Below, piece after piece: positions 4,267 to 53,538 of a DNA stretch of 64,000 nucleotides (positions within the stretch are counted from its first letter, which is position 1; every line of letters begins with the position of its first letter). The notes beneath the pieces are model-generated. The model did not search any database. It had not been told where the DNA came from and worked only from the letters and a program-made list of their open reading frames with translations. Origin of the DNA: Thermomonospora catenispora. GTDB lineage: Bacteria; Actinomycetota; Actinomycetes; Streptosporangiales; Streptosporangiaceae. The stretch spans positions 186,001 through 250,000 of the forward strand of contig NZ_RRYT01000002.1 in assembly GCF_006363815.1 (NCBI RefSeq). The letters run 5' to 3'. The position numbers and the translations under genes were made by a program.

Positions 4267-5345
4267 CCTCCGCAGGATCGGACCGCTCCCGGGAGACCCC
4301 GGTGAAGGACGTGAGCGGGCGACCGGCCGGTGAGGCGGTCACCGCCTCCGCCCGGCCCCGGCCGCCCCGGTTCCTCCGGCCGCCGGTCGTGCCGTCCGGT
4401 GTCGGCGCGGCCGGACGGCACGCCGGGCTGGCGACGGCGTTGCTGCTGCTGGTGCTAGTCGGGCTGATCACCAAGCCGGACCACTTCGCCACCTCGAGCA
4501 ACATCGTCTCGATCCTGTCGCTGGCCGCCACCATCGGGGTGATCACGGTCGGCATGACGTTCGTGATCATCGGCGGCGGGATCGACCTGTCGGTGGGCGC
4601 GGTGATGGCGCTGGCCTCGGTGTGGGCGACCACGGTGGCCACCCAGTCGCACGGGCCGGCGATGATGGCGGTCTGCGCCGTCCTGGTCGGCACCGGGGCG
4701 GGTCTGATCAACGGACTGCTGATCGCCTACGGCCGGATGGTGCCGTTCATCGCCACCCTGGCCATGCTGGTCGCCGCGCGCGGGCTGGCACAGCGCATCT
4801 CCGACCGCCGCACCCAGCTCATCCGCCCGGAGAACAACGCCATCGAGGCGCTGTCCACCACCCGGGTGCTGGGGCTGCCGCTGCTGGTCTACCTGTTCGC
4901 GGCGGTGGTGGTGGTCGGCTGGCTGGTGCTCAACCGCACCACCTTCGGCCGGCGCACCTTCGCGGTCGGCGGCAACCCCGAGGCCGCCCGGCTGGCCGGG
5001 ATCGACGTGCGACGGCACACCCTGCTGCTGTACACGCTGTCGGGGCTGTGCTGCGGGATCGCCGCGATCATCATCATGGCCCGCACCACCACCGGCTCCT
5101 CCACCCACGGCGACCTGTACGAGCTCGACGCCATCGCGGCGGTGATCATCGGCGGCACGCTGCTGTCCGGCGGACGCGGCACGCTGGTCGGCTCCATCCT
5201 GGGACTGCTGATCTTCACCGTGATCACCAACCTGTTCATCCTCAACGGCCTGGACACCAGCGACCAGCTCATCGCCAAGGGAGTGATCATCGTCATCGCC
5301 GTGCTGCTGCAGCGGCGCGGCCTGCGCACCGCCGCGGTCACCTAG
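4263..5345 (+). CDS. Sugar ABC transporter permease (RbsC type)
   Basis: This 360-residue integral membrane protein has a proline/arginine-rich cytoplasmic N-terminus of about 60 residues and then about eight to ten hydrophobic segments. The family landmark GGGIDLSVGA is present, as are GNPEAARLAGID and VIIGGTLLSGGRGT. The GTG start overlaps the ATPase stop by 4 bases. The open frame runs much further upstream, but that part is a shadow of the ATPase and ROK genes. It forms the channel of the CUT2 importer. A hairpin begins at the stop codon, separating it from the binding-protein gene. Confidence 0.92.
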   Translation: MTSAGSDRSRETPVKDVSGRPAGEAVTASARPRPPRFLRPPVVPSGVGAAGRHAGLATALLLLVLVGLITKPDHFATSSNIVSILSLAATIGVITVGMTFVIIGGGIDLSVGAVMALASVWATTVATQSHGPAMMAVCAVLVGTGAGLINGLLIAYGRMVPFIATLAMLVAARGLAQRISDRRTQLIRPENNAIEALSTTRVLGLPLLVYLFAAVVVVGWLVLNRTTFGRRTFAVGGNPEAARLAGIDVRRHTLLLYTLSGLCCGIAAIIIMARTTTGSSTHGDLYELDAIAAVIIGGTLLSGGRGTLVGSILGLLIFTVITNLFILNGLDTSDQLIAKGVIIVIAVLLQRRGLRTAAVT

Positions 5346-5362
5346 CGCCGGCCGCCCGGCGC
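5345..5362 (+). terminator. Intercistronic hairpin between permease and binding-protein genes
   Basis: A 7-bp stem, GCGCCGG / CCGGCGC, with a CCGC loop begins at the permease stop, followed by a run of nine C (5367-5375). Within an importer operon such a hairpin often acts as a partial terminator or mRNA stabiliser that sets the level of binding protein. That role is inferred. Confidence 0.4.
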
Positions 5363-5402
5363 CGGTCCCCCCCCCGAGGGGCGCGTCACGCCGCTCCCGC
5401 CG

Positions 5403-5440
5403 CGTCTTCCGCAACGTCTTCCGCAACGTCTTCCCGAACG
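5403..5440 (+). repeat. Tandem 12-bp repeat upstream of the solute-binding protein gene
   Basis: CGTCTTCCGCAA occurs twice in direct succession (5403-5414, 5415-5426). A third copy with two changes (CGTCTTCCCGAA, 5427-5438) and a decayed fourth start follow. It lies in the 129-base gap before the binding-protein gene. It could be slippage or a set of direct-repeat binding sites. Confidence 0.6.
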
Positions 5441-5474
5441 TCCCCCGACCACCCCCGACGCAGGGAGAACGCCC

Positions 5475-6518
5475 ATGACCGACACCAGCAGACGAGGGTT
5501 CCTGCTCGCCGGATCGCTCGCCGGGGCGGGCCTGGTCGCCGCCGCCTGCACCGGCAACGCCGAGGACGGCGGCACCGGCGGACAGAACGTCTCCACCGGA
5601 GGCGACAACGACAAGCCCGGCAGGCAGGTCACCATCGGCTTCTCGGCCCCCGCCGCGGACCACGGCTGGATCGCCGCCATCGCCAAGAACGCCGAGGCCC
5701 AGGCCAAGCAGTACTCCGATGTGAAGCTGCAGGCCGTGGAACCCACCAACGACATCAACCAGCAGATCTCCGCCGTCGAGTCGCTGATCGCGCAGAAGGT
5801 GGACGTGCTGGTCATCCTGCCCAACGACGGCGAGCAGCTGAACCAGGTGGCGCGCAAGGCGATGGACGCCGGGATCCCGGTGGTCAACCTGGACCGGGTC
5901 TTCCCCGACAAGCTGTCGTACCGGACCTGGATCGGCGGCGACAACTACGGCATGGGCGTGGCCGCCGGGCACTACATCGGCCGCCGGCTCAAGGAGAAGG
6001 GCGTCGACGACCCGGTGATCGTGGAGATCCAGGGCATCGCCACGCTGCCGCTGACCCAGGAGCGCAGCAAGGGGTTCGAGGACGCGCTGCGCACCTACGG
6101 CTTCCGGGTCACCGCCCGGCAGGACGCCAAGTTCACCGTGGAGAGCGGCAACCAGGTGGCCGGCAACCTGCTCCAGGCCCACCGCAAGATCGACGCGCTG
6201 TGGAACCACGACGACGACCAGGGCGTCGGCGTGCTGGCCGCCGTCAAGCAGGCCGGTCGCGACGAGTTCTTCATGGTCGGCGGGGCCGGCTCGGCCAACG
6301 CCATGCGGGAGATCAAGGCGGGCGGCGTGCTGGAGGCCACCGTCACCTACAGCCCCACCATGGCGTCCTCCGCCATCAAGATCGCCCGATTGATCGCACA
6401 AGGGAAGGGGATGGCCGATCTCGTGGAGAAACAGGTACCGCAATCCATCACACTGGCGTCGGAGACCGTCACCCGGCAGAACGTCGACCAGTACCTCCCG
6501 CTGGGGTTCGAGTCTTGA
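5475..6518 (+). CDS. Sugar ABC transporter substrate-binding lipoprotein (Peripla_BP_4 type)
   Basis: This 347-residue exported protein has a twin-arginine signal (TSRRGFLLAGSLAG) ending in the lipobox LVAAAC, so it is probably a Tat-exported lipoprotein anchored outside the membrane. The mature part is a ribose-type binding fold: VTIGFSAPAADHGWIAAI, QISAVESLIAQKVDVLVILP, and GIPVVNLDRVF. AGGGAG precedes the ATG. It supplies substrate to the 2749/4263 transporter. The ligand is unknown; a hexose, pentose or cyclitol is likely. Its stop overlaps the dehydrogenase start. Confidence 0.92.
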   Translation: MTDTSRRGFLLAGSLAGAGLVAAACTGNAEDGGTGGQNVSTGGDNDKPGRQVTIGFSAPAADHGWIAAIAKNAEAQAKQYSDVKLQAVEPTNDINQQISAVESLIAQKVDVLVILPNDGEQLNQVARKAMDAGIPVVNLDRVFPDKLSYRTWIGGDNYGMGVAAGHYIGRRLKEKGVDDPVIVEIQGIATLPLTQERSKGFEDALRTYGFRVTARQDAKFTVESGNQVAGNLLQAHRKIDALWNHDDDQGVGVLAAVKQAGRDEFFMVGGAGSANAMREIKAGGVLEATVTYSPTMASSAIKIARLIAQGKGMADLVEKQVPQSITLASETVTRQNVDQYLPLGFES

Positions 6519-7663
6519 GCGGGCAGGACAGGCCCGTGCTCGGCGTCGGGATGGTCGGGCACGCGTTCATGGGCCGGGTGCACTCCCAGGCGTGGCGCAG
6601 CGTGCGCGCCTTCTTCGACGTGCCCTGCACGCCGGTCATGGCGGCGGTGGCGGGCCGGTCCCCGGAGCGGGTCCGCGCGGCCGCCGAACGGCTCGGCTGG
6701 GCGTCGGCGGAGACCGACTGGCGGGCGCTGCTGCGGCGCGACGACATCGACCTGATCGACATCTGCACCCCCGGCGACACCCATGCCGAGATTGCCATCG
6801 CCGCCCTCGAGGCCGGCAAGCACGTCCTGTGCGAGAAACCGCTGGCCAACACGGTCGCCGAGGCCGAGGCGATGGCGGCGGCGGCCGAGCGGGCGGCGGC
6901 CCGCGGCGTGCGGGCCATGGTGGCGTTCAACTACCGGCGGGTCCCGGCGGTCGCGCTGGCCCGCCGACTGGTCGCCGAGGGACGGCTGGGCGCGATCCGC
7001 CACATCCGCGCCCAGTACCTGCAGGACTGGCTGGTCGACCCCGAGCACCCCCTCACCTGGCGGCTGCGACGGGACAAGGCCGGCTCCGGGGCGCTCGGCG
7101 ACATCGGCGCGCACATCATCGACACCGCCCAGTTCATCACCGGTGAGCGGATCACCGGGGTGACGGCGCTGACGGAGACGTTCGTGCGCGAACGCCCCGA
7201 CGGCGACGGCGGGCGCGGACCGGTGACGGTGGACGATGCGGCGTTGTTCCTGGCCCGCACCACCGGCGGGGCGCTCGCCTCGTTCGAGGCGACCCGGTTC
7301 GCCACGGGCCGCAAGAACGCGCTGCGCATCGAGATCAACGGCTCCGAGGGCAGCGTGGCGTTCGACTTCGAGGCCATGAACGAGCTGTGGTTCCACGACG
7401 CCACGCTCGACGACGCCGAGGGCGGCTTCCGCCGGATCCTGGCCACCGAGGCCGACCACCCGTACGCGGGCGCCTGGTGGCCCCCCGGCCACCTGCTCGG
7501 CTACGAGCACACGTTCACCCATGAGATCGCCGACCTGCTGTCGGCCATCGCCGCGGGCGCCGATCCGGAGCCGTCGTTCGCCGACGGCCTCCAGGTCCAG
7601 CGGGTCCTGGCGGCCGTCGAGGCCAGCGCGGCCTCAGGCGGCGGCTGGACCCCCGTCCCATGA
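6515..7663 (+). CDS. Gfo/Idh/MocA-family NAD(P)-dependent oxidoreductase
   Basis: The protein has 382 residues from the TTG at 6515, which overlaps the preceding stop (TTGA); a GTG at 6536 would give 375. The N-terminal Rossmann fold begins VLGVGMVGHAFMGRVHS. The hallmark EKP motif is in VLCEKPLAN, and the substrate-side motif reads GDIGAHIIDTAQF. Such enzymes oxidise a hydroxyl of a sugar, glycoside or cyclitol, giving for example a 3-keto sugar or inosose. The importer upstream and two isomerase-type barrels downstream fit an oxidise-then-isomerise route. Confidence 0.9.
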   Translation: MSGQDRPVLGVGMVGHAFMGRVHSQAWRSVRAFFDVPCTPVMAAVAGRSPERVRAAAERLGWASAETDWRALLRRDDIDLIDICTPGDTHAEIAIAALEAGKHVLCEKPLANTVAEAEAMAAAAERAAARGVRAMVAFNYRRVPAVALARRLVAEGRLGAIRHIRAQYLQDWLVDPEHPLTWRLRRDKAGSGALGDIGAHIIDTAQFITGERITGVTALTETFVRERPDGDGGRGPVTVDDAALFLARTTGGALASFEATRFATGRKNALRIEINGSEGSVAFDFEAMNELWFHDATLDDAEGGFRRILATEADHPYAGAWWPPGHLLGYEHTFTHEIADLLSAIAAGADPEPSFADGLQVQRVLAAVEASAASGGGWTPVP

Positions 7664-8531: not shown

Positions 8532-9536
<1,005 letters not shown>

Positions 9537-9555
9537 TCGGCGGGCGCGGTCCCGC

Positions 9556-9676
9556 GTCGGGACGAGGGCCGGCGCGGGGCCTGCGTCCCGACGGAGGGAG
9601 GCGCCACGGTCGGCCGGCGCCCAGGGCATGGGCTCCGGCCGACCGGCACGCCGGTCGGCACGGACGTCGACCGTGC
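9556..9676. terminator. Cluster of four hairpins between convergent operons
   Basis: Four inverted repeats occur in 121 bases: GTCGGGACG (9556-9564) with 9584-9592; CGGTCGGCCGG (9607-9617) with 9635-9645; GACCGGC around AC at 9641-9656; GCACGG at 9658-9663 with 9671-9676. The second and third overlap and would compete. The cluster lies between the sugar operon and the convergent CbiX-like gene and can end transcription from both sides. Confidence 0.6.
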
Positions 9677-9728
9677 GGCGATCGCGGCGAGGGCGCCCGT
9701 GCGCCGGATGCGAGGCCGCCCGCGGCGG

Positions 9729-10727
9729 TCAGCGCTGCTGGTCGGCGAACGCCTTCTCGAGGGCCTCGACGTAGCGGAGGGCGATGAGCTGGGCCAGGAC
9801 CGGGTGGTCGCCCAGCGGGGCGGCGATGCCCGCCCCCATGTCGGCGGCGAGCTTGGACAGGGCCGCCAGATGGGCGGGGTCGGCCTCGGGGCCGATCACG
9901 CAGGGGGCGTAGGCGACGTGGGTGGCCCCGGCTTCGCGCAGACGGGCGGCGGCCTCGGCGGGGCTCACCGCGCCGGAGCCGCCGTCGAGGGCGGCGGCGG
10001 TGGCGGGGACGGCCAGGCGGGAGGCCAGCAGCACGGCGCTGACCTCGGCGTCCTGGACGGCGGCCGGACCGCCCGGGACGGCGATCACCACACCGCCGGC
10101 CATGGTGACCATGGTCATCATCCGGACCCGGTCGGCGCGCGCCAACCCGGCTTCGGCGAGCCGTTCATGCAGTGCCTGGGCGATCAGCGGGTGCGGCCCC
10201 AGCGGTTCGGCGATCAGCGCGGGCACCCCGGAGGCGGCCACCGTCTCGTGCAGCGCGCGCTGGATCTGCGGGACGGGGCCGGGCAGCAGCGGCACCACCA
10301 CGGCCGGAGGCATGTCCGGGGCCCGTTCGGCGGTCTCCGCGGTCGCCAGGGCGTCGCTCAGCGCGTACTGCGAACCCTCCAGATATCCCAGGACCACCGG
10401 CCGCTCGGTGTGGGCGTGCTCGGTCAGCAGGGCGAGCGCGCCCGCCACCCCGGCCGATCCGGAGGCGTCGGGGGCGTACGCGCCCGGCACCGCCAGGATG
10501 AGCGGGGGAGCGTCCGGGGGGAGTGCGAAGGACTCGGCACCGCGATGCCGTCCACCGCGGCGCGGCCGGCGCCGCCGGGCCGGGAGGCCCTCGGGGCCTG
10601 TGTTGTCGAGAGGCGCTTCGCTGTCAGGGTTCACGGCCGGAATCGTAACGGTGCAGGGATGCCTCATTCCCTGCTTGTGGGAGTTATGTAGTAAATAATC
10701 CGATTTTGTGACTCTTGTTACGGTCAT
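9729..10727 (-). CDS. CbiX/sirohydrochlorin-chelatase-like protein lacking chelatase histidines
   Basis: The 332-residue frame has two tandem half-domains with the CbiX layout, for example VVVPLLPGPVPQIQRAL and LAEPLGPHPLIAQALHERL-like segments. Where active chelatases carry AHGS in the first strand, this protein has LILAVPGAYAPD, and the later G-x-H strand is also absent. It therefore probably does not insert metal. The first 20-30 codons (to ATG 10664 or GTG 10634) are AT-rich and basic and may be promoter rather than protein. It is divergent from the conservon, whose function it could share. Confidence 0.7.
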   Translation of the reverse strand: MTVTRVTKSDYLLHNSHKQGMRHPCTVTIPAVNPDSEAPLDNTGPEGLPARRRRPRRGGRHRGAESFALPPDAPPLILAVPGAYAPDASGSAGVAGALALLTEHAHTERPVVLGYLEGSQYALSDALATAETAERAPDMPPAVVVPLLPGPVPQIQRALHETVAASGVPALIAEPLGPHPLIAQALHERLAEAGLARADRVRMMTMVTMAGGVVIAVPGGPAAVQDAEVSAVLLASRLAVPATAAALDGGSGAVSPAEAAARLREAGATHVAYAPCVIGPEADPAHLAALSKLAADMGAGIAAPLGDHPVLAQLIALRYVEALEKAFADQQR

Positions 10728-10888
10728 GGTGACGTGCGGTCACAGTGCCGACTGTAACGCCCTGACAACATTGTCCACTCGGGTGCCGAGGATGATCCAT
10801 GACGGCGGGTGCGGACGTAGTAAGCTCCCGGAACCCCCGTACCGACATCAATCGGGAGGGTCCCCGTCATGATGGGTCACGAGGTGTG
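10728..10888. promoter_or_regulatory. Divergent promoter region between CbiX-like gene and conservon
   Basis: The region contains TGACAA at 10763-10768, a possible -35 box, embedded in the palindrome GACAACATTGTC (10764-10775). It is one of the few AT-richer patches in this part of the window. Both directions may start here. No known factor is assigned. Confidence 0.35.
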
Positions 10889-39961: not shown

Positions 39962-40327
39962 GAGACCCACGCTCGCACCGAAACATGACACCCGCTGTCG
40001 GCTTTTCGCATGGAACACTGCTGCGCGTCCGCCGGGCGGCCCGGCGGCGGCCTCCGGCGGCGAGTCGTTCGCGGTTCGTTCGCGGTGAACGAGGACCCGG
40101 CCGGCCCGTGGAGACCCGCGTTCGGCGCGGGGAGGTCCGGACCGCGCGGCCGGGAGCACGACGCCCGGGAGACCCGGCGGCGGCCCGGCGAGGCGCCCGA
40201 GGCCGGTGGGCGGACGCTCCGCGACCGCTGGAACCGGTTCACCGGACGCATGTGACGTACGTGAACTAGGACAGACGACACTGCGTCCCCAGAAAGGGGA
40301 TGATCCACTGACTCAGGGAGCGTGCGG
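39962..40327. promoter_or_regulatory. Upstream region of the receptor-kinase genes
   Basis: No gene seen in 366 bases. It contains TTCGCGGTTCGTTCGCGG (direct repeat) around 40068-40085, GAACCGGTTC at 40231-40240, and GACGTACGTGAAC with TAGGACAG at about 40255-40275, which could be a promoter. AGGGAG (40315-40320) is the ribosome site for the GTG at 40328. Confidence 0.35.
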
Positions 40328-42397
40328 GTGACTGGACAGGGAACGTCGGCGGCGCCGCTGCACCCCCACGATCCGCGTCGGCTGGGCGCCTATGAGCTGG
40401 TCGGGCGGCTGGGGGAGGGCGGTCAGGGCGCCGTCTACCTCGGCCGGGACCCCCATGGGCGGCCGGTGGCGGTCAAGACGCTGCACGCCCGGCTGCTCGG
40501 CGACCGCAAGGCCATGCGCAGGTTCGTCCGCGAGCTCCGGCTGGCACGCCGGGTGCCCGCCTTCTGCACGGCGCGGATGCTGGCGGCCGATGTGGCCGGG
40601 GAGGTGCCGTATTTCGTCAGCGAGTACGTTCCCGGTCCGTCGCTGCGGGAGCTGGTGGCGCGGGAGGGGCCGTTGGAGGCCTCGTCGTTGATGCGGCTGG
40701 CGATCGGGACGGCGACCGCGTTGGCGGCCATCCACCGCGCCGGGGTCGTGCACCGGGACTTCAAGCCCGGCAACGTGCTGATGGGCCCGGACGGGCCGCG
40801 CGTCGTCGACTTCGGCGTCGCCCGGGCGCTGGACGCCGAATCGGCCACCTTCACCAGCCAGGCCGTCGGCACCCCCGGCTACATGGCCCCCGAGCAGGTG
40901 CTGGGCGAGAAGGCGGGGCCCCGGACCGACGTGTTCGCCTGGGCCGGCACGATCCTGTTCGCCGCCACCGGCCGGCCCCCCTTCGGCGACGACTCCATCC
41001 CGGCGGTGATGCACCGGATCCTGCACGCCCGTCCGGACCTGTCCCCGCTGCCGCCCGCCCTCGCCGACATCGCCGAGGCCTGCCTGGCCAAGGACCCGGC
41101 ACGGCGCCCGGACGGGGAGGAGGTGCTGCGACGGCTGCTCGTCGCGGCGGGCGCCGCCCCCGGCCCGGCGACCGGCCCCGCCCTGTACGAGACGGCGACC
41201 CGTCTGCTGGCCGGCCCGGGCGGGCTCCCCACCCGGCCGACGCCGGCCGGCCGCCCGTCCCGCCGCCGGGCGCCGCTCCTGGCGGCCGGCGCGGCGGCCG
41301 CGGTGCTGCTGACGGTCGTCCCGGTGTTCGTGCTCGCCCAGGGGGATCGCCGCCCCCGGCAGCCCCGGCCGCCGGCCACGGTGACGGTGGGGTTCGTGGG
41401 CGCGCTGAGCGGATCGTCGGCGGAGGCGGGCCGGGAGATGCGGGAGGGCGCCCGGCTCGCGATCGAGGAGCACAACGCCGCGAATCCCGCCACCCGCATC
41501 CGGCTGGTCGACTACGACACCGGGGGAGCGCGGCGCGGGAGCGAGACGGCGCTGCAGAACGCGGTGGACGCCGGTGCGGTGGCCGTGATCGGCCCCACCG
41601 AGAGCGAAGTGGAGGGCTCCACGGGAGTCCCCCTGCGGACCGACGGCATGCCGGCGATCTCCCCCGGGATGACCGCACCGCGGTGGACCGCGGTCTCCCA
41701 GGGGCTCTACCGCCGGGTGGTCCCCGCGCGGGACGCCGCCATGCAGAGCCTGGCCGAGTTCGTCGTCCGTTCCGGGGCCGCCGAACGCGTCGCGGTGATC
41801 GACGACGGCGAGCACCGGGACCTCACCGATGTCTTCGCCGAGGCGCTGAAGAAGCGGGGCGTGAGCGTCGACACCGTCTACATGCTCGGCTTCTCCGACG
41901 AGCACGTCCGCTGGCTGATGAACCGGCTCCGGGACTGGAGGCCGCAGGCGGTGATGTATCCCGGTCCGCGCTGGCCGGCCGCCGGACTGGTCGAGGCGGC
42001 GAAGGACAAGGGCCTCAAGGCCCGCTTCTACGTCGGGGAGTGGGCCTTGCGCGGGGAGCCGCCGCCGGAGGGGACGGTGGCGTACTGCGGCTGCCTGGAC
42101 CCGGCCTGGGCGGATGCGCGGTTCCGGCAGCGGTTCCAGGCCAGGTTCGGGCACCCTCCCTCCTGGTACGCGGTGGAGGGCTACAACGCGGCGCTGCCGC
42201 TGGTGTCGGCGGTGAAGGCGGGCCGGACCACCCGCGAGCAGATCGGCCGGCACCTGGACTCCGTGGACGTGCCGGGCCTGGGACAGCGGCTGCGCTTCGC
42301 CCCCGGCGGCCGGCTGACCGCCCCGAACGTGTACGTGTACCAGGTCAGGCAGGGACGGATGACGCTGCTGGGCACCACCGCGACCGCCCGCCTGTGA
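40328..42397 (+). CDS. Transmembrane Ser/Thr protein kinase fused to an extracellular solute-binding domain
   Basis: The 689-residue protein has a Hanks kinase domain (residues about 20-275): glycine loop LGEGGQGAVYLG, Lys50 in VAVKTL, catalytic HRDFKPGN at 142-149, DFG at 161-163, GTPGYMAPEQ. One TM helix lies at about 315-337. The extracellular C-terminal half is a type 1 branched-chain amino-acid-binding-like domain (VTVGFVGALSGSSAEAGREM...EEHNAANPATRIRL). All catalytic residues are present. It should phosphorylate cytoplasmic targets in response to a small ligand outside. A pseudokinase of the same layout follows 114 bases downstream. Confidence 0.9.
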   Translation: MTGQGTSAAPLHPHDPRRLGAYELVGRLGEGGQGAVYLGRDPHGRPVAVKTLHARLLGDRKAMRRFVRELRLARRVPAFCTARMLAADVAGEVPYFVSEYVPGPSLRELVAREGPLEASSLMRLAIGTATALAAIHRAGVVHRDFKPGNVLMGPDGPRVVDFGVARALDAESATFTSQAVGTPGYMAPEQVLGEKAGPRTDVFAWAGTILFAATGRPPFGDDSIPAVMHRILHARPDLSPLPPALADIAEACLAKDPARRPDGEEVLRRLLVAAGAAPGPATGPALYETATRLLAGPGGLPTRPTPAGRPSRRRAPLLAAGAAAAVLLTVVPVFVLAQGDRRPRQPRPPATVTVGFVGALSGSSAEAGREMREGARLAIEEHNAANPATRIRLVDYDTGGARRGSETALQNAVDAGAVAVIGPTESEVEGSTGVPLRTDGMPAISPGMTAPRWTAVSQGLYRRVVPARDAAMQSLAEFVVRSGAAERVAVIDDGEHRDLTDVFAEALKKRGVSVDTVYMLGFSDEHVRWLMNRLRDWRPQAVMYPGPRWPAAGLVEAAKDKGLKARFYVGEWALRGEPPPEGTVAYCGCLDPAWADARFRQRFQARFGHPPSWYAVEGYNAALPLVSAVKAGRTTREQIGRHLDSVDVPGLGQRLRFAPGGRLTAPNVYVYQVRQGRMTLLGTTATARL

Positions 42398-42511
42398 CCG
42401 CGGACCGCGGAGAGGGCCCGGAAGGGCCGGCAGGGATCGGCGAAGGCCCGGGAGGGGCCCGGAAGGGACTCGAAAGGGCCTGGAGAGGGCTTCTCAGGAA
42501 GGGAAGGATCG

Positions 42512-44452
42512 ATGACCACACCGCTCGGCGCGGACGACCCCGCCCGGCTGGGCCGCTGGCGGCTGACCGGCAGGCTCGGCCGGGACGACCAGGGCGTGAC
42601 GTACCTGGGGGTCGATCAACAGGACCGGCAGGCCGCGGTCAAGCTGCTGCACGCCCCGGCGGGCGGGGAGGCCGAGGCGACCGCGTTCCGGCGGGCGATG
42701 GAGGCCGCCGGACGGGTGTCGGGCGTCGGCGTCGCCCGGGTGCTGGACGCCGGGGTCGAGGACGGCCGGCCTTTCTTCGCGCGGGAGCACGTCCCCGGCC
42801 CGTCGCTGGAGGAGGCGGTCGCCTCCTCCGGGCCGTTCGCCCCCTCGGTCCTGCTGCGGCTGGCGATCGACACGATCACGGCGCTGGCCGCCCTGCACGG
42901 CGCGGGGGTCCGGCACGGCCGGCTCCGTCCCGGCACCGTGCTGATGGGCCCCGACGGCCCCCGGATCATCGACTTCGGCGTCGTCACGGCGTTCGGCCCC
43001 GAGGCCGACGTGGCCGCGTGGGCGGCGACGATGCTGTACGCGGCGACCGGACGGCACCCCACCGGCCCGGTCCCCGCCGTCGACCCGGCCGTCCCGCCCG
43101 GCCTGGCCGAGGTGCTGGCCGCCTGCGTGGCCCCGGACCCGGCGGCGCGCCCGAGCAGCGGCGAGGTCCTGCAACGGCTGCTCGCCCAGGTGGGCGCGGC
43201 CCCCGCCGGCCCCTCCGCCCCGCCGGTGTCCCTCGCCAAGCGCCGGCCCGGAGGGCGCCGGCGCCCCCGATGGCTGCTGCCGCTGACGGCCGGAGCGGCG
43301 GCCGTGGCGGTGGCGCTGGCCGCGGCCGGGGCGGTGCTGCTGCGCGGCGACGACGGGGCGACGGCCGGGAGAGACGTGATCCTGGGGTTCGGCGCGCCGT
43401 ACATGGGAGCCTCGGAGCAGTCGACGAAGGCCATGCTGCACGGCGTCCGGCTCGCGCTCGAGGAGCACAACGCCGCCGACCCCGACATCCGGGTCAGGCT
43501 GACGGAACTCGACACGACGGGCCTGACGTACGACGGTCAGGTCGTCGACGCGCTCACCGGCACCGGCATAGGCGTGATCACGCCCGGGGGCGCCTCCTCG
43601 GACGACATGAGGAAGGTGATCGGCCTGTTCAGCGTCAAGGAGGTCCCGGCGGTGTCCCCCGCCTACGACGGCGCCGACTTCGAGGGCGTGGGGCTGGACC
43701 GCTACTTCTACCGGGTGGTGCCGCCGAGGGACCTCTCCGTCCGCGAGCTGGCCGGGGTCGCGGCGCGGACGGGCCGCGTCCGCAAGGCGGCGGTCGTGCG
43801 CTCCCCCGACTTCCGTCTCGACCACCGGATGTCCACCACGGCGGACGAGGTCGTCAGGACGTTGCGCGGCTCCGGGGTGGAGGTCGACCTGCAGGAGATC
43901 CCCGTGGAGGAGAACGCGAGCTCCTCGCGCCTGTCGTCCGTCGCCGAGGAGATCGCCGAGTTCGGGCCGGACGCGGTGTTCTACCTCTCCCCGCCGAAGT
44001 CCGCCGGCCGGCTGGCCCGGCTCCTGTACGAGGAGGGGGTGAACGTCCGCTCCTATTTCGGCGGGCCGTCGCCGGCGGAGTTCATCGAGGCCGCCGGGGG
44101 CCGGGCCGCCGAGGGGACGGTCACCTACCGCCCCTATCTGGACCCGGCCGGGTCCGACGCCGAGCCGGTCCGCCGGTTCCGCGAGCGGTTCCGGGCGGCG
44201 CACGGGCAGGAGCCCGGGCCGTACTCGGTCGAGGGCTACGACGCGGCCCGGGTGTTCGTCTCCGCGATCAAGGCCGGCGCCGCCACCCCCGAGGAGGTCA
44301 AGCGGCACATCGACGCGATGGACGAGCAGGGGCTCGGGCAGCGGCTGTCGTTCTCCCCGTCCGGGGAGCTGACCGCGCCGGTGGTGTACGTCTACCAGGT
44401 GCGGCAGGGACGGCTCGCCCTGCTCGGCCCGTCCCGGTCCGTCCGGCTGTGA
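42512..44452 (+). CDS. Transmembrane pseudokinase fused to an extracellular solute-binding domain
   Basis: The 646-residue protein is a paralogue of the preceding kinase with ATG behind AAGGA. The kinase domain is degenerate: the glycine loop is LGRDDQGVTYLG, Lys44 is kept (AAVKLL), but HRDFKPGN is HGRLRPGT (135-142), so the catalytic Asp, the Lys and the metal-binding Asn are lost; DFG is kept (154-156). APE is not found. One TM lies at about 255-278, then a Peripla_BP_6 domain (VILGFGAPYMGASEQSTKAM...LEEHNAADPDIRV). It is probably an allosteric partner of the active kinase. Confidence 0.9.
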   Translation: MTTPLGADDPARLGRWRLTGRLGRDDQGVTYLGVDQQDRQAAVKLLHAPAGGEAEATAFRRAMEAAGRVSGVGVARVLDAGVEDGRPFFAREHVPGPSLEEAVASSGPFAPSVLLRLAIDTITALAALHGAGVRHGRLRPGTVLMGPDGPRIIDFGVVTAFGPEADVAAWAATMLYAATGRHPTGPVPAVDPAVPPGLAEVLAACVAPDPAARPSSGEVLQRLLAQVGAAPAGPSAPPVSLAKRRPGGRRRPRWLLPLTAGAAAVAVALAAAGAVLLRGDDGATAGRDVILGFGAPYMGASEQSTKAMLHGVRLALEEHNAADPDIRVRLTELDTTGLTYDGQVVDALTGTGIGVITPGGASSDDMRKVIGLFSVKEVPAVSPAYDGADFEGVGLDRYFYRVVPPRDLSVRELAGVAARTGRVRKAAVVRSPDFRLDHRMSTTADEVVRTLRGSGVEVDLQEIPVEENASSSRLSSVAEEIAEFGPDAVFYLSPPKSAGRLARLLYEEGVNVRSYFGGPSPAEFIEAAGGRAAEGTVTYRPYLDPAGSDAEPVRRFRERFRAAHGQEPGPYSVEGYDAARVFVSAIKAGAATPEEVKRHIDAMDEQGLGQRLSFSPSGELTAPVVYVYQVRQGRLALLGPSRSVRL

Positions 44453-49277: not shown

Positions 49278-50486
49278 ATGCACCGGCTGACCGTCGACGA
49301 CGTCTACGAGCACGCCCACGGGATCTGTTTCAAGAACGGCCCGCCCGGCACCGTGGGGGCGGAGACCGAGTGGCTCGTCGTCGACCGGAGGGCGCCCGGG
49401 GCGCATGTCGCGGTCGAGAGGCTGCGCACGGTCGTCGAACGGGCCGGACCGCTGCCCGGCGGAAGCGCGATCACCTTCGAACCCGGCGGACAACTCGAAT
49501 TGAGTTCGGCTCCCTTCGGGGATCTGGGCGCATTGCACCGGGCGCTCTCGGCCGACATCGAACACGTCCGCGCCCGCCTCGCCGAACACGCCCTGGAGCT
49601 GACGGGACGGGGCATGGACCCGGCGCGCCCCCCGCGTCTGCAGGCCGACCATCCGCGCTATGCCTGCATGCGCGACTACTTCGTCGCCACCGGATACGCC
49701 GAGGCCGGCCTGACGATGATGTGCAGCACCGCCTCGGTGCAGGTCTGCCTGGAGGTCGGCGCCGACCCCGCCGACGCGCAGGCCCGCTGGCGGCTGGCGC
49801 ACGCGCTCGGACCGGTGCTGGTCGCCGCGTTCGCCAACTCCCCGCTGCGCGCCGGGAGGCCCACCGGCCTGCGCTCCACCCGCCAGGCGACCTGGAGCGT
49901 GCTGGACCCGGCCCGCACCCTGCCGGTCGCCTCCGGCCCCGGGGCCGACCCGGCCGCCGACTGGGCGCGTTACGCCCTGGACGCCCGGGTGATGCTGGTG
50001 CGGCCGCGCCCGGGGACCGGGGAGCGCTGGGCCGGAGCGCCCGGCATGACGTTCCGCCAGTGGCTGGCCAAGGGCGAGCCCGACCGCGACGACCTCGCTT
50101 ACCACCTGACCACGCTGTTCCCGCCGGTCCGGCCGCGCGGCTGGCTGGAGCTGCGGATGATCGACGCGCCGCCGCTCCGGTACTGGCCGGTGCCGGTCGC
50201 CGTCGCCGCCGCGCTGCTGGACGACCCGCGCGCCGCCGACGCCGCCGCCGAGGCGACGGCCCCGGTGGCCGGCCGGTGGGCCGAGGCCGCCCGGGACGCG
50301 CTGACCGACCCGGCGCTGGCCCGTGCCGCCCGCGCCTGCTTCACCGCCGCGCTGGAGGCCCTGCCCCGCCTCGGCGCCGCCGAGCTGACGCCGCTGGTCG
50401 CCGAGTACGCCGACCGCTACGTCGACCGGGGCCGCTGCCCGGCCGACGACCTCGATCCCGCCCACCTGCTGGAGGCCACGCCGTGA
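49278..50486 (+). CDS. egtA: Glutamate-cysteine ligase EgtA
   Basis: The 402-residue protein makes gamma-glutamylcysteine, the sulfur donor in ergothioneine synthesis. The GCS2-type ATP-grasp-like fold shows TVGAETEWLVVD near the N-terminus, ITFEPGGQLELSSAP, DYFVATGYAEAGLTMMCSTASVQV, and LVAAFANSPLRAGRPTGLRSTRQ, as in mycobacterial EgtA. It is slightly shorter than the usual 430 residues. It starts the egtABCD operon and overlaps egtB by 4 bases. Confidence 0.93.
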   Translation: MHRLTVDDVYEHAHGICFKNGPPGTVGAETEWLVVDRRAPGAHVAVERLRTVVERAGPLPGGSAITFEPGGQLELSSAPFGDLGALHRALSADIEHVRARLAEHALELTGRGMDPARPPRLQADHPRYACMRDYFVATGYAEAGLTMMCSTASVQVCLEVGADPADAQARWRLAHALGPVLVAAFANSPLRAGRPTGLRSTRQATWSVLDPARTLPVASGPGADPAADWARYALDARVMLVRPRPGTGERWAGAPGMTFRQWLAKGEPDRDDLAYHLTTLFPPVRPRGWLELRMIDAPPLRYWPVPVAVAAALLDDPRAADAAAEATAPVAGRWAEAARDALTDPALARAARACFTAALEALPRLGAAELTPLVAEYADRYVDRGRCPADDLDPAHLLEATP

Positions 50487-51802
50487 CACCCGATCTGGCC
50501 GAGGACGCGCTGAAGGAGCTGATCGCCGCCGAGCTGGCCGCGGTCCGCGACCGCAGCCTGGGACTGACCACCCGGGTGCTGGACGACCCGGAGCTGACCG
50601 CGCAGGTCTCCCCGCTGATGTCCCCGCTGGTGTGGGACCTGGCCCACGTCGGCAACTACGAGGAGCTGTGGCTGCTGCGGGCGGCGGCGGGGATCGAGCC
50701 GATGCGGCCGGAGATCGACGACCTCTACGACGCGTTCGAGCACCCCCGCGCCGAACGGCCCTCGCTGCCGCTGCTGCCGCCGGACGAGGCCGGCGTCTAC
50801 ATCGGCGCCGTGCGGGCGAAGGTGCTGGACTCGCTGGAGCGCATCCGCTTCCGCGAGGACGACCCGCTGGTCGCGGGCGGATTCGTGTACGGGATGGTGA
50901 TCCAGCACGAGCACCAGCACGACGAGACCATGCTGGCCACCCACCAGCTCCGCACGGGCGCGCCCGCCCTGACCGACCCCGACGAGCCGCCGCCCCGGCC
51001 CGCCGGCGGGCCGTTCCCGGCCGAGGTGCTCATCGAGGCCGGGCCGTTCGAGATGGGCGCCTCCGACGACCCGTGGGCCTACGACAACGAGCGCGGCGCC
51101 CACATCGTCGACCTGCCCGCCTATTACATCGACACCTTCCCGGTCACCAACCGGGAGTACCAGGCGTTCATCGAGGCCGGCGGCTACGACGACCCCCGCT
51201 GGTGGACCCCCGAGGGCTGGCGGTGGCGCTCCGCCCGCGACCGCCGCGCCCCCGGGTTCTGGCGGCGCGAGGGCGACCGGTGGCTGCGCCGCCGCTTCGG
51301 CCGGATCGAGCCGGTGCCGCCGGACGAGCCGGTGCAGCACGTGAGCTGGTACGAGGCCGACGCCTACGCCCGCTGGGCGGGCAAACGGCTGCCCACCGAG
51401 GCCGAGTGGGAGAAGGCCGCCCGCTGGGATCCCCTCGCCCGGCGCTCCCGCCGCTTCCCCTGGGGGGACGTCTACGAGGAGGGGCGCGCCAACCTGGGGC
51501 AGCGGCGGCTGCGGCCCGCCCCGGTCGGGTCGTTCCCCGCCGGGGCCTCCGCGTACGGGGTGCAGCAGATGCTCGGGGACGTGTGGGAGTGGACCTCCTC
51601 GGACTTCGCCCCCTACCCGGGCTTCCGGGCGTTCCCCTACAAGGAGTACTCGCAGGTCTTCTTCGGGTCCGACTACAAGGTGCTGCGCGGCGGGTCGTGG
51701 GCGACCCACCCGCTGGTCTGCCGGGGGACGTTCCGCAACTGGGACTATCCGATCCGCCGGCAGATCTTCACCGGGTTCCGCTGCGCCCGTGACGCCGGGT
51801 AG
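50483..51802 (+). CDS. egtB: Ergothioneine biosynthesis sulfoxide synthase EgtB
   Basis: The 439-residue non-heme iron enzyme starts at GTG 50483, overlapping egtA. It joins hercynine and gamma-glutamylcysteine oxidatively. The N-terminal DinB-like part carries the iron histidines: LVWDLAHVGNYEELWLL and HEHQHDETM (HxxxH type). The C-terminal FGE-sulfatase-like domain has FPVTNREYQAFI, LPTEAEWEKAARWD, and VWEWTSSDFAPYPGF...VLRGGSWATHP. All expected motifs are present and length is standard. Confidence 0.95.
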   Translation: MTPDLAEDALKELIAAELAAVRDRSLGLTTRVLDDPELTAQVSPLMSPLVWDLAHVGNYEELWLLRAAAGIEPMRPEIDDLYDAFEHPRAERPSLPLLPPDEAGVYIGAVRAKVLDSLERIRFREDDPLVAGGFVYGMVIQHEHQHDETMLATHQLRTGAPALTDPDEPPPRPAGGPFPAEVLIEAGPFEMGASDDPWAYDNERGAHIVDLPAYYIDTFPVTNREYQAFIEAGGYDDPRWWTPEGWRWRSARDRRAPGFWRREGDRWLRRRFGRIEPVPPDEPVQHVSWYEADAYARWAGKRLPTEAEWEKAARWDPLARRSRRFPWGDVYEEGRANLGQRRLRPAPVGSFPAGASAYGVQQMLGDVWEWTSSDFAPYPGFRAFPYKEYSQVFFGSDYKVLRGGSWATHPLVCRGTFRNWDYPIRRQIFTGFRCARDAG

Positions 51803-51810
51803 GCCCGCCG

Positions 51811-52551
51811 ATGTGCCGCCATCTGGGCTACCTCGGCCCGCCCCGGACCCTGGAGTCGCTGCTCTTTCAGGGCCCGCACTCGCTGGAGGTCCAGTCGTAC
51901 GCGCCCCGCATGACCTGCGGCAACCTGCTGAACGCCGACGGGTTCGGCGTCGGCTGGTACCACCGGGGGCGGGCGGTGCGGTTCCGGCGGGCGCAGCCGA
52001 TCTGGACCGACCGCTCCTTCCGGGAGATCGCCGCGACGGTGACGGCGACCTGCGCGGTGGCGGCGGTCCGCTCGGCCACCACCCGCTTCCCGGTGGAGGA
52101 GTCGTGCGCCCAGCCGTTCCGCGCGGGCGGGCGGCTGTTCAGCCACAACGGCGTGGTGACGGACTTCGACGGGGTGGAGGACAAGCTCCGGGAGCTGGCC
52201 GGGGACCTGTCGCATGCGCCGGACGCCCGCGCCCCCGTGGACTCGGCGCTGGTGTTCGCGGTGGCGGCGCGGCGCTGGCGGGAGGGCGCCGCGCTGGGCG
52301 AGGGCCTGGCCGACACCGTGGCCGCCGTGGCGGCGCTCTCGCCCGGCCGCTACAACCTGCTGGCCGCCGACGGGACCGCGCTGGCCGCCACCGCCTGGGG
52401 CGACTCGCTGTTCGTCCGGAGCGGTCCCGGAGAGGCGCTGATCTCCTCCGAGCCCCTGGACGACGACCCCGCCTGGCGCGCGGTCCCCGACCGCAGCCTG
52501 GTCGTCGTCGACCGGGCCGACCTCGCCGATGTCCGCATCACCCCCCTGTGA
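51811..52551 (+). CDS. egtC: Ergothioneine biosynthesis glutamine amidohydrolase EgtC
   Basis: The 246-residue class II amidotransferase begins MCRHLGYLG, so Cys2 is the N-terminal nucleophile after Met removal. NADGFGVGWY, FSHNGVV and DSALVFAVA are the family motifs. It removes the glutamyl group from the EgtB product hercynyl-gamma-glutamylcysteine sulfoxide. It lies 8 bases downstream of egtB and just before egtD. Confidence 0.95.
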   Translation: MCRHLGYLGPPRTLESLLFQGPHSLEVQSYAPRMTCGNLLNADGFGVGWYHRGRAVRFRRAQPIWTDRSFREIAATVTATCAVAAVRSATTRFPVEESCAQPFRAGGRLFSHNGVVTDFDGVEDKLRELAGDLSHAPDARAPVDSALVFAVAARRWREGAALGEGLADTVAAVAALSPGRYNLLAADGTALAATAWGDSLFVRSGPGEALISSEPLDDDPAWRAVPDRSLVVVDRADLADVRITPL

Positions 52552-52553
52552 CC

Positions 52554-52579
52554 GGTGAAGGAGGACGGTGAAGGAGGAC
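52554..52579 (+). repeat. Tandem duplication of a ribosome-binding segment before egtD
   Basis: GGTGAAGGAGGAC occurs twice in direct succession (52554-52566, 52567-52579), each copy containing AAGGAGG. The second copy is correctly spaced from GTG 52582; the first would serve a GTG at 52568 that is out of frame. Confidence 0.85.
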
Positions 52580-52581
52580 CG

Positions 52582-53538
52582 GTGGACCGCTTCCTGACCG
52601 CAGACGACCTCGACAAGGCGCTCCGCCGGGACGTGGCGGCGGGGCTGACCGCCACTCCCAAGGCGCTGCCGCCCAAGTGGTTCTACGACGAGCACGGCAG
52701 CCTGCTGTTCGAGGAGATCACCCGGCTGGATGAGTACTACCCCACCCGGCGGGAGCGGGAGATCCTGCGCGTCCGCGCCGCCGAGATCGCCGCCGCCACC
52801 GGGGCGCAGACGCTGCTGGAGCTGGGCGCCGGGTCGGGGGAGAAGACCAGGCTGCTGCTGGACGCCCTGTCGGCGGCGGGCACGTTGCGGACGTACGTGC
52901 CGGTGGACGTGTCCGGCGACTTCCTGGCCGCTGCGGCGGCCGGGATCGCCGCCGACTACCCGGACCTGGTCGTGCGGTCGGTGGTCGCCGACTACGAGCG
53001 GCATCTGCACCTGCTGCCGTCCGGGCCGCGCCGGCTGCTGGTGTTCCTGGGCGGGACGATCGGCAACTTCGCCCCGGCCGAGCGGATCTCGTTCCTGTCG
53101 GGGGTCCGGGCCGTGATGGAGGACGGCGACGCGCTGCTGCTCGGCGCCGACCTGGTCAAGGACGCCGGGCGGCTGGTGCGCGCCTACGACGACGCCCGGG
53201 GCGTGACCGCCGAGTTCAACCGGAACGTGCTGCGCGTGATCAACCGGCGGCTGGGGGCCGACTTCGACCCCGGGGCGTTCGAGCACGTGGCGCTGTGGGA
53301 CCCCGACAACGAGTGGATCGAGATGCGGCTGAGGTCGGCCGCCCGGCAGACCGTGCGGGTCGCCGACCTGAAGCTGACCGTGGAGTTCGCGGCGGGAGAG
53401 GAGATGCGCACCGAGATCTCCGCCAAGTTCCGCCGCGAGCGCCTCGCCGCCGAGCTGAGGGCCGCGGGCCTGGCCCTGCAGGCGCTGTGGACCGACGGGG
53501 CGGGGGACTTCTCCCTGTCCCTGGTCCGCCCCGCCTGA
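52582..53538 (+). CDS. egtD: L-histidine N-alpha-trimethyltransferase EgtD
   Basis: The 318-residue SAM methyltransferase converts histidine to hercynine. GTG 52582 is chosen for the AAGGAGG 5 bases upstream; an in-frame GTG at 52555 adds 9 residues. Motifs: [30 protein letters not shown]-like [48 protein letters not shown], and [19 protein letters not shown], all typical of EgtD. No egtE (PLP lyase) gene follows; that step must be encoded elsewhere or by another enzyme. Confidence 0.95.

Follow-up and report, generated by a model that had tools for sequence, protein, structure and literature searches.

Can a receptor kinase that has lost its catalytic residues serve as a partner of the apparently active paralogue encoded next to it? 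This question is raised by two genes of Thermomonospora catenispora, here called P1 and P2, in a 64,000-nucleotide stretch (the window; contig NZ_RRYT01000002.1, positions 186,001 to 250,000, assembly GCF_006363815.1). The two open reading frames (ORFs) are adjacent on the forward strand, 114 bp apart, and each encodes an N-terminal kinase-like domain, one transmembrane helix and a C-terminal Peripla_BP_6 domain (Table 1), an organization already described in a first-pass annotation and confirmed here by ORFs, Pfam and hydropathy; both motifs which that annotation listed as common to the sensor halves (EEHNAA and YVYQVRQGR) are present in P1 and P2. The Pfam Pkinase match is strong in P1 (E=1.2e-37) and covers only the N-terminal part in P2 (E=1e-10), and identity between the proteins is 46% for the kinase domain and 37% for the sensor domain (E 3e-54 and 3e-50, respectively). 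We propose, at about even confidence, that P2 has been retained as a receptor subunit without catalysis of its own and adjusts the activity of P1.

P1 carries the motif set of a Hanks-type receptor Ser/Thr kinase (Gly-loop, beta-3 Lys, alpha-C Glu, HRDxKxxN, DFG and APE), and the residues named in the first-pass annotation (Lys50, HRD at 142-144, and DFG, here at 161-163) are correct by translation and alignment. Its nearest relative with a known structure is PknB. When about 80 related kinases were aligned, 91 columns were near-invariant (one residue in at least 85%), and 90 of these are retained by P1. Judging from these features, P1 is probably an active Hanks-type transmembrane receptor Ser/Thr kinase.

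P2 retains 52 of the same 91 columns, and 11 are deleted, front-side elements among them. Relative to P1, the Gly-loop residues G31/G32 are replaced by D25/D26, the alpha-C Glu (E69) by A62, the catalytic-loop Lys (K146) by R139, HRD by HGR (135-137) and the metal Asn by Thr142, and the deleted activation segment includes GTP..APE, which leaves beta-3 Lys44 and the DFG Asp154 as the only catalytic features. On this sequence evidence, phosphotransfer by P2 would be very improbable, and ATP binding appears doubtful. The first-pass annotation had called P2 a pseudokinase and had correctly read the retained Lys44 and DFG, HGR in place of HRD, and Thr in place of the metal Asn; the call is borne out, but the extent of the loss was understated, as the changes in the Gly-loop, alpha-C Glu, catalytic Lys, activation segment and helix alpha-G had been missed. 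A non-canonical catalysis (e.g., nucleotidyl transfer), or a function exerted through nucleotide binding, could draw on the beta-3 Lys and DFG Asp that are kept, but with the Gly-loop glycines, the alpha-C Glu, the HRD Asp, the catalytic-loop Lys and the metal Asn all gone, we rate it as very unlikely.

A deletion of the activation segment and alpha-G as in P2 is also found in HGA/HGS pseudokinases from two genera of the family (L167:5468-6859 in G033 and L168:3233-3922 in G045), which lack the beta-3 Lys and are 68% identical to each other. Membership of P2 in this group, considered on the basis of the common activation-segment deletion, was rejected: P2 does not cluster with them in the kinase tree, and both of its halves group with the fusion kinases.

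The first-pass annotation had allowed that the pseudokinase loss might be a sequencing artefact, and the genome is indeed a draft of 109 contigs. However, the change from HRDFKPGN to HGRLRPGT requires many base changes, the two deletions are in-frame, and the P2 frame is intact, with no stop or frameshift. Differences to P1 are distributed along the whole gene, and the GC content at third codon positions (GC3) is 0.965-0.975 (i.e., about 0.97), equal to or above that of P1 and of the sister-species gene. Together with the identity of 46% and 37% to P1, these features exclude that concern, and the probability of a sequencing or assembly error is negligible.

Phylogenetically, the kinase tree places P1, P2 and the fusion of the sister species G004 together (96/91, with long branches flagged by the program), and the sensor tree joins P1 with P2 (98/96), then with the G004 and G003 genes (95/92), which indicates common ancestry of the two genes. 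Divergence at fourfold-degenerate sites (restricted to sites with identical residues) was 37-39% for P1-P2, 38-50% for P1-G004 and 43-50% for P2-G004, as compared to 9-17% for flanking genes and other kinases between T. catenispora and G004. With saturation at the fourfold sites of these genes and only 9-17% divergence in the flanks, the P1 and P2 gene lineages appear to predate the split from this sister species, which would imply loss of one member there or an exchange of the locus. The P2 lineage would then have existed as an open frame for at least a comparable time, although the catalytic loss may be younger. A recent lineage-specific duplication, the initial reading of synteny, was rejected in that form on account of the saturation of both the P1-P2 and the P1-sister comparison against flanks at 9-17%. 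In the window, positions 40201-44450 form an island of raised divergence, with a synonymous level saturated against the sister gene, and DNA identity to G004 falls from 85-91% in the flanks to about 72% in the kinase block, which suggests either that the paralogy is old and its members were lost differentially, or that the locus has recombined.

Among kinase columns, P2 has changed relative to G004 at 23% of those in the quartile of highest conservation and at 61% in that of lowest conservation (0 of 2000 permutations), 63 of 67 hydrophobic kinase columns are kept hydrophobic, and the change profile of the P2 sensor is nearly equal to that of the P1 sensor. This pattern argues for a maintained fold rather than a fresh pseudogene. 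The ratio of non-synonymous to synonymous changes (dN/dS, NG86 omega) was uninterpretable at 95-97% GC3, where ordinary neighbours gave 0.4-0.6, and was used relatively only. In neutral simulations, the chance of remaining stop-free was at most 0.08 at 0.1 changes per site and at most 0.005 at 0.2 with unbiased or 70%-GC mutation, although it reached P = 0.18-0.39 when mutation was strongly GC-biased. A decaying duplicate without function could thus have stayed open under such a bias, and would also fit the absence of the pair from all other sampled genomes and the long kinase branch of P2 (1.24 vs. 0.38 for P1); with the frame intact, GC3 at 0.97, changes falling mainly in variable columns, the hydrophobic core kept and a P1-like constraint on the sensor, we consider decay improbable.

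Both P1 and P2 match the LivJ-type (Peripla_BP_6) profile across the full domain; the sensor profile resembles LivJ/LivK-type amino-acid binding proteins and, to a lesser degree, the flytraps of metabotropic glutamate receptors. In LivJ, the alpha-amino acid of the ligand is presumably anchored by Ser79, Thr102 and Glu226. When aligned to E. coli LivJ (1z15), the P1 sensor retains Ser, Thr and Glu at these positions, whereas P2 has lost two of the three anchors (Asp for Thr102 and Gly for Glu226), and RPY replaces the CxC of the family; the Thr anchor position is variable in other family members as well. Because the Thr and acidic anchor positions and the CxC are lost, the P2 sensor may bind another ligand or none. 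The expectation of the first-pass annotation that both proteins read an outside ligand is therefore supported for P1, with its LivJ-type anchor positions, and weakened for P2.

How could such a pair work? The solute sensed by the Venus-flytrap (LivJ-type) domain of P1 would be small and is probably an amino acid; P1 would signal through dimerisation and trans-autophosphorylation in a PknB-like manner. The deletions in P2 strip away the activation segment and helix alpha-G, the two front-face elements for trans-phosphorylation in PknB-type kinases, and leave the N-lobe, the C-lobe core, the transmembrane helix and the sensor fold. Because the activation loop and alpha-G are lost, P2 would be unable to phosphorylate or to undergo the usual activation. 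It may pair with P1 through its extracellular and transmembrane parts and/or the back of its N-lobe, and would then set P1 activity either as a dominant-negative, unphosphorylatable partner or as an allosteric activator. Adjacency on the same strand and a spacer in which no terminator-like site was found (42398..42511) count in favour of a joint role. An active receptor kinase beside a pseudokinase was the central proposal of the first-pass annotation, and the shared sensor architecture and the apparently dead P2 agree with it; that the two work as one receptor is what we infer.

For comparison, PknB forms asymmetric face-to-face dimers, with one activation loop facing the other active site, as well as back-to-back dimers proposed to be allosteric (PMC6333020). 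Solved structures of the PknB mutants L33D and D76A were among the structure matches. We take Arg10 and Asp76 of PknB to form a salt bridge at the back-to-back interface; their equivalents are A21 and A86 in P1 and R15 and D79 in P2, with Asp or Glu at the second position in 78 of 94 rows of the alignment.

Several observations weigh against P2 as a tuning subunit of P1. Since P1 lacks the equivalents of both Arg10 and Asp76, a P1-P2 heterodimer could not form the PknB-type salt bridge. The AlphaFold2 models, built from few sequences, reached a mean predicted local distance difference test score (pLDDT) of 55-57 and were used solely for secondary-structure order and fold class, at which level the P2 model, though weak, matches PknA/PknB/PknE and LivJ-type folds. 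Constraint on P2 does not amount to proof of function, since some of the substitutions may be older than the catalytic loss. Finally, cross-species conservation of P2 was not observed: no P1-P2-like pair was found among 343 family genomes (one per species, with a single assembly for T. catenispora) screened with the P1 sensor, a search in which few candidates were scored per genome and some fusions may be missed, and the P2 kinase half retrieved no close counterpart in 299 family genomes.

P2 might also be functional without regulating P1, either as a stand-alone scaffold or decoy (e.g., a phosphorylation target that recruits forkhead-associated (FHA) proteins) or as a sink or sensor for another ligand. 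The divergence of its sensor anchors from those of P1 (Asp, Gly and RPY) means that the ligands may differ, and P2 keeps an Asp76 equivalent that P1 has lost, which is more in keeping with PknB-type dimers of P2 with itself than with P1. For an FHA-recruiting target, MviN in mycobacteria provides a precedent (PMC12599244), but the activation-loop phospho-acceptor is gone from P2, though juxtamembrane Ser residues remain, and a joint role is the better fit to adjacent genes of common strand and ancestry, so that we regard a stand-alone P2 as unlikely if conceivable.

A single fusion gene with HRD, DFG and APE occupies the orthologous locus in six relatives (G004, G003, G052, G113, G114 and G298), and at least one of its flanks carries the same genes as in T. 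catenispora, for a short-chain dehydrogenase/reductase (SDR) and/or TetR, an acyl-CoA dehydrogenase or an epimerase. All three motifs are kept in the 14 other kinase-sensor fusions read from the sensor screen, and a scan of genome contigs with P2 returned only ordinary kinases without a sensor. Neighbouring fusions with both members apparently active are present in G321 (L126:4794-6977 and 8666-10879) and in the more distant actinobacterium G514 (L153:2024-4447 and 4458-6629, about 10 bp apart), so fusion pairs do recur; a dead member is unique to T. catenispora among the sampled genomes. Conservation of the pair beyond this strain, which the first-pass annotation had put forward as a check, thus largely fails, with none in 343 genomes and a single active gene at the sister loci.

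A second kinase pair, which carries no solute-binding domain, lies outside the window (L160:2407-5874; contig C21:286906-290373), about 57 kb beyond P2 on its downstream side, and consists of a canonical kinase followed by a second kinase. All five genomes of the genus contain this pair (L161-L164 in the sister species), and a search of 55 other genomes gave no match to its second member at E <= 1e-60. The second member is fully canonical in G003 (VAVK, HRDLKPGN, GTPGYLAPE). In G001 it reads HRDLRPGT and retains the beta-3 Lys, in G002 it reads VAIR and HRDLSPAN, and in both G000 and G004 it combines VAIR, HRDLRPGT and a shortened activation loop, without the beta-3 Lys and metal Asn. The loss is graded: one species has a fully canonical second kinase, and three others lack the beta-3 Lys. 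Because the pair is retained in five species, it supports the idea that degenerate kinase partners are kept in this genus. It is tempting to go further and picture P1 and P2 as a ligand-tuned receptor heteromer in which P2 is purely allosteric or dominant-negative, with active/dead tandem receptor pairs arising repeatedly in the genus, but we offer this only tentatively, as a somewhat unlikely extension.

Another pseudokinase of T. catenispora (L165:5818-7443, reverse strand, contig C13) has VVIH, HGGLRPET and DAAV in place of DFG, keeps APE, and is convergent with an adjacent canonical kinase gene.

Kinases fused to extracellular solute-binding domains were described in 2005 from S. coelicolor (gi 21223285) and Nostoc (gi 17227840) (PMC1262709). 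Like P1, these proteins join a cytoplasmic Hanks-type kinase to an extracellular solute-binding/ANF-receptor-type domain; they are reported as single kinases, however, the S. coelicolor sensor is reported to be of the Glu/Gln-binding type, and the passages of that paper on these fusions describe no pseudokinase twin. The same-locus fusions of the six relatives share the architecture as well, but with one gene per locus. Among the actinobacterial pseudokinase families ActPs1-3 (reviewed in PMC12599244), ActPs1 has all three triad residues substituted and often lacks helix alpha-G, and ActPs3, with MviN, has wholly degraded catalytic motifs, a deleted activation loop and often a transmembrane helix after the kinase. 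P2 resembles the former in its absent alpha-G and the latter in its activation-loop deletion, but falls outside both with its Lys44 and DFG, and differs further in its LivJ-type sensor and its descent from a different, active subfamily.

In the GlnH-GlnX-PknG system, an extracytoplasmic solute-binding protein is proposed to control an actinobacterial Ser/Thr kinase by amino acids, much as we suggest for P1, but through three separate proteins, with the kinase unfused to the sensor and no pseudokinase (PMC6069109, PMC9769921). The Venus kinase receptors of invertebrates are single-pass proteins with an extracellular Venus flytrap and an intracellular kinase, activated by amino acids and dimerising (PMC4026697). 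Unlike P1, they are animal tyrosine kinases, and the likeness concerns the way of working only. Receptors of the HER3 type, in which a pseudokinase is a paralogue of an active receptor kinase, offer an analogy to a possible P1-P2 pairing and no relationship. Single kinase/solute-binding fusions and actinobacterial pseudokinases are thus known, and the P1-P2 pairing is new; a search of the open-access literature, with subscription papers outside its reach, turned up no such pairing of receptor kinase and pseudokinase that has been characterised. Although bacterial Ser/Thr pseudokinases have been catalogued, a partner or role is known for almost none of them (PMC12599244). With P2 encoded beside an intact, probably active paralogue of the same sensor architecture, the partner hypothesis is directly testable, and the second pair provides, at one gene position, a natural gradation between active and dead kinases.

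Table 1. Features of the P1-P2 locus, in window positions.
Feature	Position	Strand	Evidence
P1, predicted receptor Ser/Thr kinase, 689 aa, GTG start	40328..42397	+	ORF, Pfam Pkinase + Peripla_BP_6
P1 kinase domain (residues 22-268)	40391..41131	+	Pfam PF00069
P1 beta-3 Lys50	40475..40477	+	alignment with PknB K40
P1 catalytic loop HRDFKPGN (residues 142-149)	40751..40774	+	translation, alignment
P1 DFG-to-APE activation segment (residues 161-189)	40808..40894	+	alignment
P1 transmembrane helix (about residues 317-337)	41276..41338	+	hydropathy
P1 extracellular LivJ-type solute-binding domain (residues 351-676)	41378..42355	+	Pfam Peripla_BP_6 E=8e-31; profile match to LivJ/LivK structures
Intergenic spacer, 114 bp; purine-rich ribosome-binding site AGGAAGGGAAGG immediately 5' of the P2 ATG	42398..42511	+	
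P2, predicted receptor pseudokinase, 646 aa	42512..44452	+	ORF, Pfam
P2 retained beta-3 Lys44	42641..42643	+	alignment with PknB
P2 degenerate catalytic loop HGRLRPGT (residues 135-142), replacing HRDFKPGN	42914..42937	+	alignment
P2 retained DFG (154-156)	42971..42979	+	alignment
P2 junction: activation segment, APE and P+1 loop (about 28 residues) gone	42994..42995	+	alignment with 20 active kinases
P2 junction: body of helix alpha-G (about 12 residues) gone	43081..43082	+	alignment
P2 transmembrane helix (about residues 258-278)	43283..43345	+	hydropathy
P2 extracellular LivJ-type solute-binding domain (residues 292-633), LivJ Thr102- and Glu226-equivalents changed	43385..44410	+	Pfam Peripla_BP_6 E=2e-27; alignments

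More broadly, about 55 matches lie above the Pfam protein-kinase cut-off in the T. catenispora genome (5.35 Mb), a large kinome for a genome of this size. Elsewhere in the window, the adjacent ORFs at 49278-53538 resemble an ergothioneine (egtABCD-like) cluster, an assignment made by eye.

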